From Bacteroidetes bacterium 47-18 (lineage in GTDB: Bacteria > Bacteroidota > Bacteroidia > Chitinophagales > Chitinophagaceae), in contig MKSF01000004.1 of assembly GCA_001897155.1 (NCBI GenBank), positions 62,001-126,000 of the forward strand: a stretch of 64,000 bases of DNA, given 5' to 3'. Shown here piece by piece: positions 19,953-62,222 of the stretch. Under the pieces are notes generated by a model that was not told where the DNA came from, made no database searches, and saw only the letters and a list, made by a program, of their open reading frames with translations. Position numbers and translations under genes: made by a program. Position 1 is the first letter of the stretch, and each line of letters starts with the position of its first letter.

Positions 19953-19987
19953 AAAAAAAGTTTGCTGGGTTACAGCAAACTTTTTTT
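19953..19987. terminator. Terminator facing the receiver gene
   Basis: AGTTTGCTG and CAGCAAACT with a 5-base loop, flanked by seven A on the left and seven T on the right. It can act in both directions and mainly serves the minus-strand receiver gene that ends 24 bases away. Confidence 0.85.
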
Positions 19988-20010: not shown

Positions 20011-20517
20011 TTATCTCATCATCGGCCTGATCAGCAGGAAATAGAGTGAGCACAGGATAATAAGCACAATGACAACCGACAGGAACGTGATGGTGTTCTT
20101 CTGGGCCTTATTGATGGTGCGCATCTTGTGCAGCTCAGACAGGTTATTGATAATATTCTCTATCCTGGAAAAGGCGCTTTCTCCTTTTACCACGTAATCG
20201 TACGCGCCGAATTTTATCGTATCTATGGCCACTTCTATCTTATCCTGTCCTGACAAGGCTATCACTTGTGTTGATGGCGATATTTCTTTGATCTGCTTGA
20301 GAATTTCGATACCGTTTTTGGCGTTCGGGTTATTGGCGTTCAGGTAATAGTCCAAAACTAATATTTCCGGGTGCAGATGCATTTTCTTCAATGCCTCCTC
20401 CCCGTTATCAAACACCACAATCTCATATAGGAAACGCTCTGTTAGGTAATCTTTCAGCATTTCGTTCTGAATGGGTTCGTCGTCAACGAGAAATAAATAG
20501 CGTTTTTCTGATGCCAT
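20011..20517 (-). CDS. Single-domain response regulator tethered by a C-terminal membrane helix
   Basis: A 168-residue protein. The receiver domain (about 5-125) has the acidic pair Asp12-Asp13, phospho-acceptor Asp56 (ILVLDYY), Ser89 (ALSGQD) and Lys111 (VVKGE), so it looks phosphorylatable. No output domain follows. Instead a short linker leads to a hydrophobic segment (about 143-163) and a basic tail RPMMR, a tail-anchored arrangement with the receiver in the cytoplasm. It lies 100 bases downstream of the hybrid kinase in the same direction, so the kinase's HPt domain is the likely phosphodonor. Receivers are usually soluble. The partner that reads this one is not in the window. Confidence 0.85.
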   Translation of the reverse strand: MASEKRYLFLVDDEPIQNEMLKDYLTERFLYEIVVFDNGEEALKKMHLHPEILVLDYYLNANNPNAKNGIEILKQIKEISPSTQVIALSGQDKIEVAIDTIKFGAYDYVVKGESAFSRIENIINNLSELHKMRTINKAQKNTITFLSVVIVLIILCSLYFLLIRPMMR

Positions 20518-20617
20518 TGTCTGATATTTTTAAATTATAAATGTATTATCTTGTATGGATAAAAAGTGGAATTAATTTTGTAAGATACTCACAGTATTTC
20601 AATATTCAAAGTTTTTA

Positions 20618-23314
20618 TTATTCTTTTTTGCTGAGCTCCCGGATGCTCTTGGCGACCACCTGGCTGATGTTCTCAACCAGGAAATCCAGCCTTTTCCCGG
20701 GAGGCTCATGACCCGCGGCGGCGGCCTGTTCCAGCTCGTATATATGACTGACCTCTTCCCTGACGCCCATATAGGACAACTGGGGCTTAAGCGAATGCGC
20801 GGCTACCTTAAGGTTCGGGTAATCCCTGTTTTGCCAGTTGGCATTGATCTTCTCCAGGAGCGTGGGCGCATTCTGGATGAACATATGCACATATTTATCT
20901 ATTTTGCTTTGGTCGTCTTTCGTGAACTGCTTCAGGAAGGTCATATCGGTAATGTGCTCCGGCAGGGTGACGGCGGGCGGGGCCGCTTCAGGCTCCTGTG
21001 CCGTGCTGCCCGGCTCAGTCTTCAGGATATGTGACAGGGTATCATTGCCCGGATGGGTGACATAATCCTTTTCTTCCTTTACCAGGTGCTCCGGTAAGAC
21101 GCTCGACATTTTATCCAGCAGCACCTCGGTCTTGAACGGCTTGGAGATGTATGCGTTCATACCGCACTCCAGGTAGGTCTTCACATCTTCCTGCAGGACA
21201 TTGGCGGTCATGGCCACAATGCTGATATGCTTCTTTCTTTCATCTTCCAGGTTCCGGATGGCTATGGTCGCTTCCACGCCGTTCATGACCGGCATCTGGA
21301 TATCCATCAGCACCAGGTCATAATCGTTCTGCTTCACCTTTTCAACCGCGATAGCCCCGTTCTCCGCGGTATCCAGCTCTATATTTGGCAGCAGTTCCTT
21401 GAGCGTATCTTCCGCTACCAGCTGGTTGAATTCATTATCCTCCACCAGCAGGATCCTGGCATTGTTGAGCTTATTGATGACCTCCATGGATATTTCTTCC
21501 TCTTTTTTTACGACCTGCTGGTTTTGCGCGATCTCGAAGTTGATCTCTACGTAAAAGGTCGTGCCTACGCCTTCCTGGCTTTCCACGTATATTTTACCGT
21601 TCATCAGGTCCACCAATTGTTTGGAGATGGTCAGCCCCAGGCCCGTACCGCCGTACTTCCGGGCAGTATCCGTCCCTGCCTGGGTAAAGGATTCGAATAT
21701 CTTATCCACGTAATCCCTGGATATGCCGATGCCCGTATCGCGGATGCTGAATTTAAGGTGGATGCGCTTGTCGGTAGTATCTGTATTCTCTATCCTGATG
21801 GTAATACCGCCTTTTTCCGTGAATTTAATGGCATTCCCTATCAGGTTCACCAATATCTGGGTGACCCTTGTCGCGTCGCCTTTGAGCTGGTCCGGGATGC
21901 TTTCATCCACCATAAAGACCATATCCAGGTTTTTTTCCTGCGCTTTGATATCCATCATATCCCTGATGCTGCTGATGATCTCCCGCAGGGAGAAAGGGAA
22001 GTGCTCAATGATGATCTTGCCGGCCTCTATTTTGGAGAAGTCCAGTATATCATTGATGATGATCAAAAGATTATCTGCAGATTGCTTGATGGCATTAAGA
22101 TATTTTTCCTGGTCCTGCCTTGGGTTTTTATCCATGAGGAGCCGCGTAATGCCTACAATGGCATTCATCGGGGTCCGGATCTCGTGGCTCATATTGGCCA
22201 TGAACTGCTGCTTGAGGCGGGCGGTCTTCTCCGCGATCTCCTTTTCTTTCTTGGCGACCTCGATCTGGGTCTTTATCTGGAGGTTCCGGAGCTTGTTAAG
22301 GGTAGCCTGCTGGAAGATCTCCTCTTTAAGCTTTTCATATGCCTTCAGGTGGTTGAATGCCTTTGGGATATGGCCCATCAGGTCGTAAATATGGGAAAGG
22401 GACTCGTGTATGCTCATCAGGTCGTGCTTGCGGGACGTATCCTGTGCCAGGTCGTAGGCCTTTTCCAGGTGCTGCAGCGCCAGCCTGTAATTGTCCTTGG
22501 CCATGTTCAGCTTGCCGTAGTAGAAGTTGGAGATGATCTCCGACTCCACGTTATCTATTTTTTCCGCCTCTTTCATGCTGGTCAGCAGGTAGGTTTTGGC
22601 CTCATCGTAGAAACCCTGCTTATAAAGCACCTTGCCGATGCCGCTTTCAGCCAGCACGCGGTACACGGTCTCCGGGTCCGAAAGTTTCAGGTTGGTTTTA
22701 AAGTAATGCAGGGCCTCCTCATACATCTCTTTCTTGAAATAAATATCCCCGAGCGTATTATAGATATCCATCAGCCTGGTATTGTTCTGGTATTTCTCGA
22801 ATATGGGCTGGCACTTCAGGGCATATTCCAGGGCCGTATCATAATCGCCGAGATCGTGGTACAGGTTGGAGATATTGGTAAGGTTGATAGTGAGCAGGAA
22901 TTCATTGCCATGCTGCTCATTGATCTCCAGCGCAGCTTCAAAATTCTTCAGCGCCTTGGCCAGCTCTCCCAGGCTCCTGTATATCCTGCCGAAGTTGTTC
23001 AGCACCTTGGCCTCCAGGATCGGGTCTTTTACGGCTTTGGCTATCTCGTAGGCCCCGGTAAGCTCATCTAGGCCGTCATCATACTCTCCCATGATCCAGT
23101 AGCAGGCCCCCTTATGGTTCATGCCGTTGCCTATGCCCAACTGGTAATTCAGGGCCGTGGATTTTTCTATGATCTCCTCGGCCAGCACCATGGCCTTATC
23201 CACATCATCATTCCTGATCTCAAGGGTCAGCTCGCTCAGGATATCTATTTTAAGGTAAGGGTCCGTAGTGGTATTGTAAGATTCGTATAGCGCGTTGTAA
23301 ACGGCAGTATTCAT
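20618..23314 (-). CDS. Soluble TPR hybrid histidine kinase (TPR-HisKA-HATPase-REC-HPt)
   Basis: An 898-residue multi-step phosphorelay protein with no signal peptide or membrane segment. Residues about 1-335 are TPR-like helical repeats. A charged coiled coil (about 338-370) leads into HisKA with His377 in SHEIRTPMN. The HATPase domain follows (N box NLIGNAIKF, G1 DTGIGIS, G2 GGTGLGLTIS). A receiver domain carries Asp671 (LVLMDIQMPVMNG), and a C-terminal HPt domain carries His840 (AAHSLKPQ). A signal presumably arrives by protein-protein contact through the TPR part. Phosphate can pass His377 to Asp671 to His840, then to a separate receiver, most simply the membrane-tethered one encoded next. 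No DNA-binding regulator is adjacent. Confidence 0.93.
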   Translation of the reverse strand: MNTAVYNALYESYNTTTDPYLKIDILSELTLEIRNDDVDKAMVLAEEIIEKSTALNYQLGIGNGMNHKGACYWIMGEYDDGLDELTGAYEIAKAVKDPILEAKVLNNFGRIYRSLGELAKALKNFEAALEINEQHGNEFLLTINLTNISNLYHDLGDYDTALEYALKCQPIFEKYQNNTRLMDIYNTLGDIYFKKEMYEEALHYFKTNLKLSDPETVYRVLAESGIGKVLYKQGFYDEAKTYLLTSMKEAEKIDNVESEIISNFYYGKLNMAKDNYRLALQHLEKAYDLAQDTSRKHDLMSIHESLSHIYDLMGHIPKAFNHLKAYEKLKEEIFQQATLNKLRNLQIKTQIEVAKKEKEIAEKTARLKQQFMANMSHEIRTPMNAIVGITRLLMDKNPRQDQEKYLNAIKQSADNLLIIINDILDFSKIEAGKIIIEHFPFSLREIISSIRDMMDIKAQEKNLDMVFMVDESIPDQLKGDATRVTQILVNLIGNAIKFTEKGGITIRIENTDTTDKRIHLKFSIRDTGIGISRDYVDKIFESFTQAGTDTARKYGGTGLGLTISKQLVDLMNGKIYVESQEGVGTTFYVEINFEIAQNQQVVKKEEEISMEVINKLNNARILLVEDNEFNQLVAEDTLKELLPNIELDTAENGAIAVEKVKQNDYDLVLMDIQMPVMNGVEATIAIRNLEDERKKHISIVAMTANVLQEDVKTYLECGMNAYISKPFKTEVLLDKMSSVLPEHLVKEEKDYVTHPGNDTLSHILKTEPGSTAQEPEAAPPAVTLPEHITDMTFLKQFTKDDQSKIDKYVHMFIQNAPTLLEKINANWQNRDYPNLKVAAHSLKPQLSYMGVREEVSHIYELEQAAAAGHEPPGKRLDFLVENISQVVAKSIRELSKKE

Positions 23315-23406: not shown

Positions 23407-24048
23407 TTATTTTCTTTTAATGGAGCATCCTACAGACCTGCTGCTGGTCGGATCAATGGTTTGCTTGCTGACCATAGCATTCATGGCATTGGCAAGATAC
23501 AGTTGCTTTACTTCTTCAGGGTTGGCCGGGTTGTCATCCATAGCGCCTTTGTACACCAGTTGGTTCTCCGCGTTGAACAGGAATACTTCGGGTGTCCTGG
23601 TGGCGCCGAAAGCATCCGCAAGGTCGCCCAGGTCTACCAGGTAATGGGCATACCCGTGCTGCCGGGCATAGGCTTTCATAGCGTCCTCGCTGTCTGCATC
23701 GTTGCGCTGCGCCTCGTTGGAATTGAGTATCACCACGCCTATCTTAAGCTGCTCTGCCAGCTTTAGCACCTCTCTGGTACGTGGCTGGGCCTTCACCACA
23801 TACGGGCAGGTATTGCAGGAAAAGATCACCAGTGTGCCGGCGGATTGCTTCAGCTTATTGGGGCTGATCTGCCGCCCGGTCACTACATCATGCAATGCCT
23901 TATCCGCCAGAGGCATAGCAGAACCTATGGCCAGTGAGGTCTTCGGACTGGCTGTTCCCTGCGGTACGGTTGGCGACTGCGCCTGTAGCTGGTGGCCGAG
24001 CGCCAGGCCGGAAAGTGTAAGGGTCAGGAATAAGAGTATTTTTTTCAT
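23407..24048 (-). CDS. Secreted thioredoxin/redoxin-like protein
   Basis: A 213-residue protein with an N-terminal signal peptide (about 1-24, ending LQAQ) and a thioredoxin-fold domain of the AhpC/TSA-redoxin type. The active motif is CNTC in IFSCNTCPYV (about residues 77-80), and the cis-Pro loop is RTPEVFLF. It should act in the periplasm or at the outer membrane as a thiol reductant or peroxidase. The C-terminus SVGCSIKRK carries one further Cys. It is monocistronic. The exact substrate is not predictable. Confidence 0.8.
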   Translation of the reverse strand: MKKILLFLTLTLSGLALGHQLQAQSPTVPQGTASPKTSLAIGSAMPLADKALHDVVTGRQISPNKLKQSAGTLVIFSCNTCPYVVKAQPRTREVLKLAEQLKIGVVILNSNEAQRNDADSEDAMKAYARQHGYAHYLVDLGDLADAFGATRTPEVFLFNAENQLVYKGAMDDNPANPEEVKQLYLANAMNAMVSKQTIDPTSSRSVGCSIKRK

Positions 24049-61334: not shown

Positions 61335-62222
61335 GTGAGTACCTATGCTACATATACCATAAAGAACCTGGAAGTAATGACCGGCATTAAAAGCCATACT
61401 ATCAGGATATGGGAGAAGCGTTACGGTATCCTGCAGCCCGGCAGAAGCGATACGAATATCCGCTTTTATACCAACGAGGACCTGAAAAAGCTGCTGAATG
61501 TAAGCTTTCTGAACCAGCATGGTCTGAAGATATCCAGGATCGCGGAAATGTCGGAAGAAGAGATACGGCTTAAAGTGCAGGCCCTGAACCTGTCGGAGTT
61601 CTCTGATGCCACGCTTATAGAAAGCCTGATGGTGGCTATGATAGAGCTTAATGAATCCCTGTTCCGGAATGTATTGCATACGGCTACTTTAAGGTACGGG
61701 TTCGAGCAGGTGGCAGTACTGGTGATCTTTCCCTTCTTTCAGCGTATAGGCATTATGTGGCAGACCGGGGTCATTAACCCCGCCCAGGAGCATTTTGTCA
61801 GTAATATCGTCCGCAACATGATCATAGGGGCTACGGAGGCCCTCGACTACCATCCCGATCCTGCCCTGAAAAAAGTGGTGCTGCTGCTGCCGGAAAGCGA
61901 GCTGCACGAGATCGGCCTTTTATTCTATAATTACGTGCTGCGCATACATAACTACCCGACGCTGTACCTGGGGCAGATAGTGCCGCTGGATAGTATGGAG
62001 CGTATCCTGGAGATCACCACCCCCGATGCTCTCATCTGCTCTGTGACCAATGCGTTGAATGCCGGTGATATAGACATCCTGATCCGTCGGATAGCAGTGA
62101 CCTATAAAGGTCCTGTGTTTGTCTGCGGCAGTGCGCTGTCTGCCTGTGAAGCCCCGATGCCGGCTAATGTAAGCAGGTTTTCGAGAGCTGCGGAGCTGCT
62201 GCAGCTCCTTGCCGCGCTTTAA
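61335..62222 (+). CDS. MerR-family regulator with cobalamin-binding domain (CarH/LitR-like)
   Basis: A 295-residue protein. A MerR winged helix lies at about 7-75 (YTIKNLEVMTGIKSHTIRIW). A four-helix B12-binding linker region lies at about 85-160 (with QTGVINPAQEHFVSNIVRN). A Rossmann-like B12 domain follows, with His191 in ESELHEIG, corresponding to the DxHxxG lower-ligand motif. CarH and LitR use adenosylcobalamin as a light sensor to repress carotenoid genes in the dark. The downstream phytoene desaturase gene supports the same role here. The start codon is GTG. Confidence 0.9.
   Translation: MSTYATYTIKNLEVMTGIKSHTIRIWEKRYGILQPGRSDTNIRFYTNEDLKKLLNVSFLNQHGLKISRIAEMSEEEIRLKVQALNLSEFSDATLIESLMVAMIELNESLFRNVLHTATLRYGFEQVAVLVIFPFFQRIGIMWQTGVINPAQEHFVSNIVRNMIIGATEALDYHPDPALKKVVLLLPESELHEIGLLFYNYVLRIHNYPTLYLGQIVPLDSMERILEITTPDALICSVTNALNAGDIDILIRRIAVTYKGPVFVCGSALSACEAPMPANVSRFSRAAELLQLLAAL

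Follow-up and report, generated by a model that had tools for sequence, protein, structure and literature searches.

A TPR hybrid kinase with a built-in HPt domain and a predicted tail-anchored receiver as a probable membrane-directed phosphorelay in Bacteroidota

Two adjacent genes in a 64,000-nucleotide stretch of contig MKSF01000004.1 from Bacteroidetes bacterium 47-18 (assembly GCA_001897155.1, contig positions 62,001 to 126,000; hereafter the window) encode a soluble hybrid histidine kinase, with tetratricopeptide repeats (TPR) at its start and a histidine phosphotransfer (HPt) domain at its end, and a small receiver protein whose C-terminus is predicted to enter the membrane. We think it likely that the two form a phosphorelay of four steps (H377, D671, H840 and D56, in this order) that ends in a receiver held in the inner membrane by its C-terminal helix. 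This proposal draws on the computed anatomy of both proteins, their conservation, their co-occurrence, the comparison of fused and free HPt, and a predicted continuous helix.

The kinase precedes the receiver on the minus strand of the window, with 100 nucleotides between them. We scanned 84,980 species, one genome each, with a sequence pattern and confirmed 188 relatives; the best 80 of the 188 were kept and come mostly from metagenome assemblies, the named ones being Taibaiella, Edaphocola and Flavipsychrobacter, with a few unlikely labels (Azovibrio, Bacteroides). In 60 of these 80 relatives, the gene directly upstream of the receiver encodes a kinase in the same orientation (gap of 37 to 364 nucleotides). 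Of these kinases, 55 are full-length (860 to 1000 amino acids), three are partial and two are paralogues with a receiver (REC) as input (L065 and L084). As for the remaining 20 loci, the kinase is 6.3 kb away in two and the receiver lies within 3 kb of the contig start in three; all 18 genomes searched (those of all these loci but L031 and L032) contain a near-full-length kinase. We then counted both genes in 195 genomes of the family, calling the receiver at E ≤1.3e-48 with a match reaching at least residue 152 (the next match is at 2.8e-28) and the kinase at E ≤1e-180 (a few matches cover part of the kinase only). The receiver is present in 39 genomes, the kinase in 40 and both in 39; the genome with the kinase only, G143, is 69% complete. 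With a hydrophobic tail in 80 of 80 relatives, a kinase upstream in 60 and both genes in all 39 receiver genomes, the arrangement is not due to chance. The preliminary description of this DNA, which proposed the pairing with the HPt as donor, had advised looking for the same pair in related genomes, and these counts bear the pairing out.

An indication of how the two proteins may communicate comes from outside the window's family. Searched with a profile (receiver cut-off E ≤1e-38), 36 of 248 genomes from the same order contain the receiver, and we compared 40 of the 41 sites lying outside the family. In 22 of these 40 loci, the receiver gene is closely preceded, on its own strand, by a gene for an HPt protein (gap of -25 to 274 nucleotides); 17 of these 22 HPt genes in turn follow a hybrid kinase, 2 to 82 nucleotides after its end. 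One of the 22, L240, starts at the edge of its contig and is possibly the last part of a fused kinase. The four free HPts that were tested all pass the Pfam Hpt cut-off, and the three partner kinases tested have no Hpt match. We also ranked 47 HPts (22 free, 25 fused) by their similarity to that of the window: the 14 closest matches are free HPts (E from 6.9e-26 to 1.1e-20), and 21 of the 22 free HPts rank above all 16 HPts from kinases of the soluble-sister or PAS type described below. The HPts of nine TPR kinases from f48, a family of another class, take ranks 15 to 29, among the lower free HPts, and L240 comes 40th. The motif AHSLKPQxxYM of the window HPt occurs in 10 of the 22 free ones. 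Some families encode the HPt on its own, between the genes for kinase and receiver, and another has it as part of the kinase, which is good evidence that it acts between the two proteins. Co-occurrence and the free HPt genes together support the view that kinase and receiver belong to one module, with the HPt as the likely donor.

The receiver, 168 amino acids long, was said in the preliminary description to have a C-terminal membrane helix as its only other element, and this holds: Pfam finds Response_reg only, and no DNA-binding or other effector domain, and the best 19-residue hydropathy mean is 3.08 at residues 145 to 163. Only three of 10,000 shuffles of the receiver's own letters attain this value. 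The hydrophobic tail is present in all 80 relatives (mean of at least 2.11) and in 38 of the 40 order-level loci (at least 2.12; absent in L222 and L235); it reaches 1.69 to 2.62 in nine of nine receivers of the other class, as against 0.24 to 0.94 in 16 soluble sister receivers. Net positive charge is greater before than after the helix in 79 of 81 sequences and equal in two, and 2 to 14 residues follow the helix, so that the receiver domain should be cytoplasmic with almost nothing outside. The protein thus has, by prediction, the layout of a tail-anchored protein: one C-terminal hydrophobic helix, a very short tail and the N-terminus in the cytoplasm. Might the protein be soluble instead, its hydrophobic C-terminus forming a helix that is buried or serves in oligomerisation? 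The AlphaFold2 model shows a bare helix, which cannot tell membrane from coil, and the membrane placement rests on prediction, a point that counts against the membrane-anchored relay. The soluble alternative nevertheless appears very improbable in view of the hydropathy over 19 residues, of the helix being conserved as hydrophobic and not by residue, and of the charge on the inner side.

The fold of the receiver domain itself is ordinary. The AlphaFold2 model (44 sequences, mean predicted local distance difference test score, pLDDT, of 89; predicted template modelling score, pTM, of 0.75) finds its best Foldseek match in the NtrC1 receiver 1zy2, with a TM-score of 0.79 by target length. All 81 sequences have D12, D13, D56, S89, Y108, K111 and G112, and with the first six of these the acid pair, phosphoacceptor Asp, Ser/Thr, Tyr/Phe and Lys of the CheY-like superfamily. 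Most of residues 9 to 23, around alpha1, and many of residues 86 to 121 are invariant as well, the whole stretch from 85 to 121 being strongly conserved. According to an excerpt of PMC9981736, alpha1 belongs to the face of receivers that contacts the DHp domain, and the alpha4-beta5-alpha5 face alters upon activation in terminal receivers.

For the kinase, the preliminary description had proposed a soluble TPR protein with HisKA, HATPase, REC and HPt domains and with His377, Asp671 and His840; Pfam, the residues and hydropathy agree with it on every count. The four domains of an HPt-bearing hybrid, HisKA, HATPase_c, REC and HPt, stand in one chain whose phosphoacceptors, H, D and H, lie within MSHEIRTP, VLMDIQMP and AAHSLKPQ, respectively. 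The HisKA/DHp region is the most conserved (there, 66 rows of kinase length average 80% identity with the window). In an 83-row alignment, H377 is found in 75 rows, D671 in 76 and H840 in 74, the remainder being truncated open reading frames or wrong-strand reads; rows L122, L123, L126-L128, L135, L137 and L141 are not kinases. The highest 19-residue hydropathy mean is 1.18, below membrane strength, and a missed signal peptide and membrane helix are unlikely since the open frame has 914 amino acids against 898 called. The AlphaFold2 model of the kinase (21 sequences, mean pLDDT 80, pTM 0.44) shows paired TPR helices up to residue 313 and then a single long helix, 316 to 395, running into HisKA, with block pLDDT dropping from 92 to 63 along its length. 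A linker of low confidence (744 to 780) precedes the helices that contain H840 (792 to 897).

Is a soluble sensor with a membrane-bound regulator, presented in the preliminary description as a reversal of the usual pattern, what defines this system? Kinases found beside tail-anchored receivers have TPR input in the window's family, PAS input in L224, L226 and L232, an N-terminal receiver in L065, L206 and L218 (and, by sequence, in L084), and an N-terminal membrane helix in the order-level loci L215 and L216. L065 and L084 are second copies of the pair, in which REC replaces TPR and the HPt and tail-anchored receiver are retained. In terms of sequence, the inputs differ and the HPt followed by a membrane receiver recurs. 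Five loci (L206, L211, L236, L237 and L241) have an extra single-receiver gene of 124 to 128 amino acids before the kinase, about 2.8 kb upstream of the receiver; these look like a four-gene relay, REC / REC-HK-REC / HPt / tail-anchored REC (HK, histidine kinase), with kinase domains identified by Pfam in L206 only.

The tail-anchored receiver of the f48 family, 37 to 42% identical, occurs in 9 of 13 genomes, and among 245 sampled genomes of its class the receiver is found in nine, all of them f48. The gene order is receiver first, TPR kinase after. All nine HPt-ended kinases of f48 have a membrane helix at residue 402 to 482, and eight have a further N-terminal hydrophobic segment; their HPt end is recognised by Pfam in L164 and L165 and by alignment in all nine. 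In two loci (L165:2660-8035 and L178:4251-9598), tandem TPR hybrid kinases follow the receiver, the nearer without HPt and the farther with an HPt end; the HPt-less one also has a membrane helix. In f48, both partners are thus in the membrane by prediction, and the membrane-bound receiver does not stand in for a membrane sensor that was lost. The reversal therefore stands for the window's lineage and fails for f48, as it does for L215 and L216: on these predictions, a soluble TPR sensor with a membrane regulator is a trait of that lineage and does not define the system.

With trees of the receiver, we also examined whether the membrane tail has a single origin. In a tree of receiver columns (63 rows, NtrC outgroup), the tail-anchored receivers of f1 and f48 form one clade, with support of 98/84, versus the soluble sisters. 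A 96-row tree, from which seven near-duplicates were left out, gives no resolution on a single origin of the tail; one clade is not rejected (p-AU 0.398).

The f48 kinases bear on another explanation: the tail-anchored receiver could be a membrane dock for the kinase or a phosphate sink, the output being delivered by another response regulator elsewhere. Receivers acting as phosphate sinks exist, this one has no effector domain in Pfam and no effector is seen as a conserved neighbour; Rec-only proteins can also serve as intermediates, as an excerpt of PMC9981736 states. We consider a dock or sink unlikely, however. The anchor is kept in all nine loci of the other class, where the kinase has a membrane helix of its own, so docking alone is not needed there, and the invariant S89 and Y108, together with conserved residues 85 to 121, fit a receiver with an allosteric output face.

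Could the true partner of the kinase be a DNA-binding regulator, the tail-anchored receiver being an accessory or a branch? The preliminary description had named a separate DNA-binding regulator, present with conserved pairs and being the true target, as one finding that would overturn it. Branched relays in which one phosphotransferase serves several receivers are known, such as CckA-ChpT-CtrA/CpdR in an excerpt of PMC9981736, and the gene for a DNA-binding target might lie at any place in the genome, our reading having covered the conserved neighbours. Nevertheless, no DNA-binding response regulator was recognised in the 40 most widespread neighbour families of the 80 loci (protein starts read by eye, no family search) or among the neighbours in the 40 order-level loci, and 39 of the 40 genomes with the kinase also have the receiver, which makes this explanation improbable.

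Several observations weigh against a relay ending on a membrane-anchored receiver. In 15 of the 80 loci, with at least 3 kb of upstream sequence, the kinase is not nearby, and some order-level receivers (for example, L227, L229, L230, L231 and L234) have neither kinase nor HPt near them. HPt and receiver are not specially linked in a mirror-tree test on 56 pairs (partial r 0.02); other values are 0.40 for the internal receiver (REC1) and HPt, 0.27 for receiver and TPR and 0.26 for receiver and HATPase. The Pfam score of the window HPt is modest (28.1 bits, for a cut-off of 24.6) and a sequence search of the PDB with this domain gave no good match (best E 0.47). Receivers usually carry a cis-Pro after the conserved Lys; here, the residue is Gly112 in 81 of 81 sequences (residues 111 and 112 are encoded at 20182-20187 of the window). 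In the other relatives compared, this position holds Gly, Asn or Ser. The membrane helix has few conserved residues and varies freely, so that it may be a plain anchor; a signalling helix is equally compatible with such variation. Finally, the 80 and 40 loci hold no conserved neighbour pointing to a transporter, motility or secretion target, the destinations suggested in the preliminary description. Its proposal that the signal is delivered to the membrane is borne out in so far as a membrane-anchored receiver is very probably the end point of the relay; the proposed targets find no counterpart among the neighbours.

How would such a relay operate? TPRs habitually bind proteins or peptides, and the cytoplasmic TPR region would bind a ligand, probably of this kind, with the long helix relaying the signal to HisKA. 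The phosphoryl group would pass from the internal receiver to the built-in HPt and on to D56 of the tail-anchored receiver. Phosphorylation of D56 may alter the alpha4-beta5-alpha5 face through S89/Y108 coupling and, with it, the receiver's pairing, either between two receiver molecules or with a membrane protein whose gene lies elsewhere. As alpha5 and the membrane anchor are predicted to form a single helix, this change would occur beside the bilayer. We infer here the direction of transfer, the location of the receiver, fixed in the membrane by its C-terminal helix, and an output by protein contact. A broader proposal, which we put forward tentatively, is that of a separate class of Bacteroidota phosphorelays, in which interchangeable inputs, cytoplasmic or membrane, would feed one conserved HPt and tail-anchored receiver; phosphorylation might then act via the alpha5/membrane helix on a membrane complex, the output arising inside the bilayer and not at DNA or a soluble target.

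TorS, BarA and ArcB share the order HisKA-HATPase-REC-HPt, and the window kinase has the same order of catalytic and relay domains. The NCBIfam models for TorS and BarA are its best matches, at scores far below the cut-offs, which speaks against orthology (405.7 bits for a cut-off of 676.5 with TorS, 388.2 for 890 with BarA and 332.3 for 838 with ArcB). Unlike these systems, the window pair combines a cytoplasmic TPR input in the kinase with a receiver that lacks a DNA-binding domain and is predicted to be anchored in the membrane. The receiver as the only folded domain is also the layout of the CheY, Spo0F, CpdR and MrrA type, and the nearest solved structures are NtrC1 and CheY-like receivers. 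However, alpha5 of the window receiver continues into a membrane helix and Gly replaces Pro after the Lys. Related too are the soluble sisters mentioned above (L146-L160 and L177), receivers of 143 to 146 amino acids from the same phylum, which are 37 to 43% identical and mostly adjoin PAS hybrid kinases; soluble sisters beside hybrid kinases that lack membrane segments are also found. They differ in having no membrane tail and, in the two kinases tested, an HPt below the Pfam cut-off (L154) or undetected (L152).

A receiver protein with a membrane-anchored domain has been described in Methanoregula, whose MetOD3-REC-MetOD2 regulators carry a membrane-anchored MetOD3 domain, as an excerpt of PMC5847659 reports. 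These are four proteins from one archaeal genus and differ, in the same excerpt, by their N-terminal MetOD3 and by an HTH-like MetOD2 after the receiver (HTH, helix-turn-helix). In the open-licence literature (titles and starts of abstracts of the papers listed, subscription journals and preprints not included), we found no paper on a membrane- or tail-anchored single-domain response regulator, and phrases such as 'membrane-bound response regulator' gave no matches. This silence is weak evidence for the novelty of the membrane-anchored single-domain receiver.

The neighbourhood of the pair (Table 1) shows no conserved third gene or common effector in the 80 loci and the 40 order-level loci. 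The widespread neighbours in the 80 loci look like housekeeping genes in synteny (first 70 residues read by eye, no family search), and 17 of the 80 carry a sigma-factor-like gene on the opposite strand, some 5 kb downstream. In the window, ribosomal-protein-like open reading frames on the opposite strand lie beyond the apparent terminator hairpin. The redoxin-family protein at 23407-24048 has a signal-peptide-like start by eye and is not among the widespread neighbour families. An ABC-ATPase-like gene is found downstream of the receiver in L228, L230, L231 and L242, all from genus g281. In two further loci (L169:2445-9127 and L168:2172-5621), distant soluble single-domain receivers adjoin Poly_export/SLBB and Wzz/GNVR genes, and the L169 receiver directly follows a PAS hybrid kinase whose Hpt match falls just short of the cut-off. 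This is a possible clue that relays related to that of the window act on exopolysaccharide export. We did not retain such a link for the window system, as the L168 and L169 receivers are distant soluble cousins from another subfamily.

Table 1. Position of the two relay genes, their domains and flanking elements in the window
Feature	Position	Strand	Basis
Hybrid histidine kinase, 898 aa, no transmembrane segment	20618..23314	-	Open reading frame, Pfam, hydropathy, AlphaFold2
TPR sensor region, residues 4-313	22376..23305	-	Pfam TPR_12 4.1e-33; paired helices in AlphaFold2 model
Helix linking TPR and HisKA, residues 316-366, continuous with first DHp helix	22217..22369	-	AlphaFold2
HisKA/DHp with H377	22019..22213	-	Pfam HisKA 2.1e-21 (368-432)
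HATPase_c	21536..21880	-	Pfam 5.2e-30
Internal receiver with D671	21110..21454	-	Pfam Response_reg 7.8e-23 (621-735)
HPt domain with H840, residues 801-890	20645..20914	-	Pfam Hpt 2.5e-6 (808-886); AlphaFold2 helices 792-897
Predicted tail-anchored single-domain receiver, 168 aa	20011..20517	-	Open reading frame, Pfam, hydropathy, AlphaFold2
Receiver domain with D56 phosphoacceptor, residues 9-113	20179..20493	-	Pfam Response_reg 1.1e-17
alpha5, a single helix (residues 115-167) extending through the membrane segment	20017..20175	-	AlphaFold2, mean pLDDT 89
Predicted transmembrane tail anchor, residues 145-163	20029..20085	-	19-residue mean 3.08
Redoxin-family protein	23407-24048	-	Pfam; 92 nucleotides before kinase
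Probable intrinsic terminator after receiver, 8-bp stem then T run	19953..19980	-	By eye; absent from pattern scan

The outputs of two-component systems are usually regarded as soluble and mostly transcriptional. Here, the predicted switch helix of the receiver is also its predicted membrane anchor, and this arrangement is kept, with kinase and HPt, across several families of the order and in one family of another class, which points to a direct membrane output. As a small conserved module of two or three genes, present in Taibaiella, Edaphocola and Flavipsychrobacter, the system should be tractable for finding out what a phosphorylated membrane receiver does.

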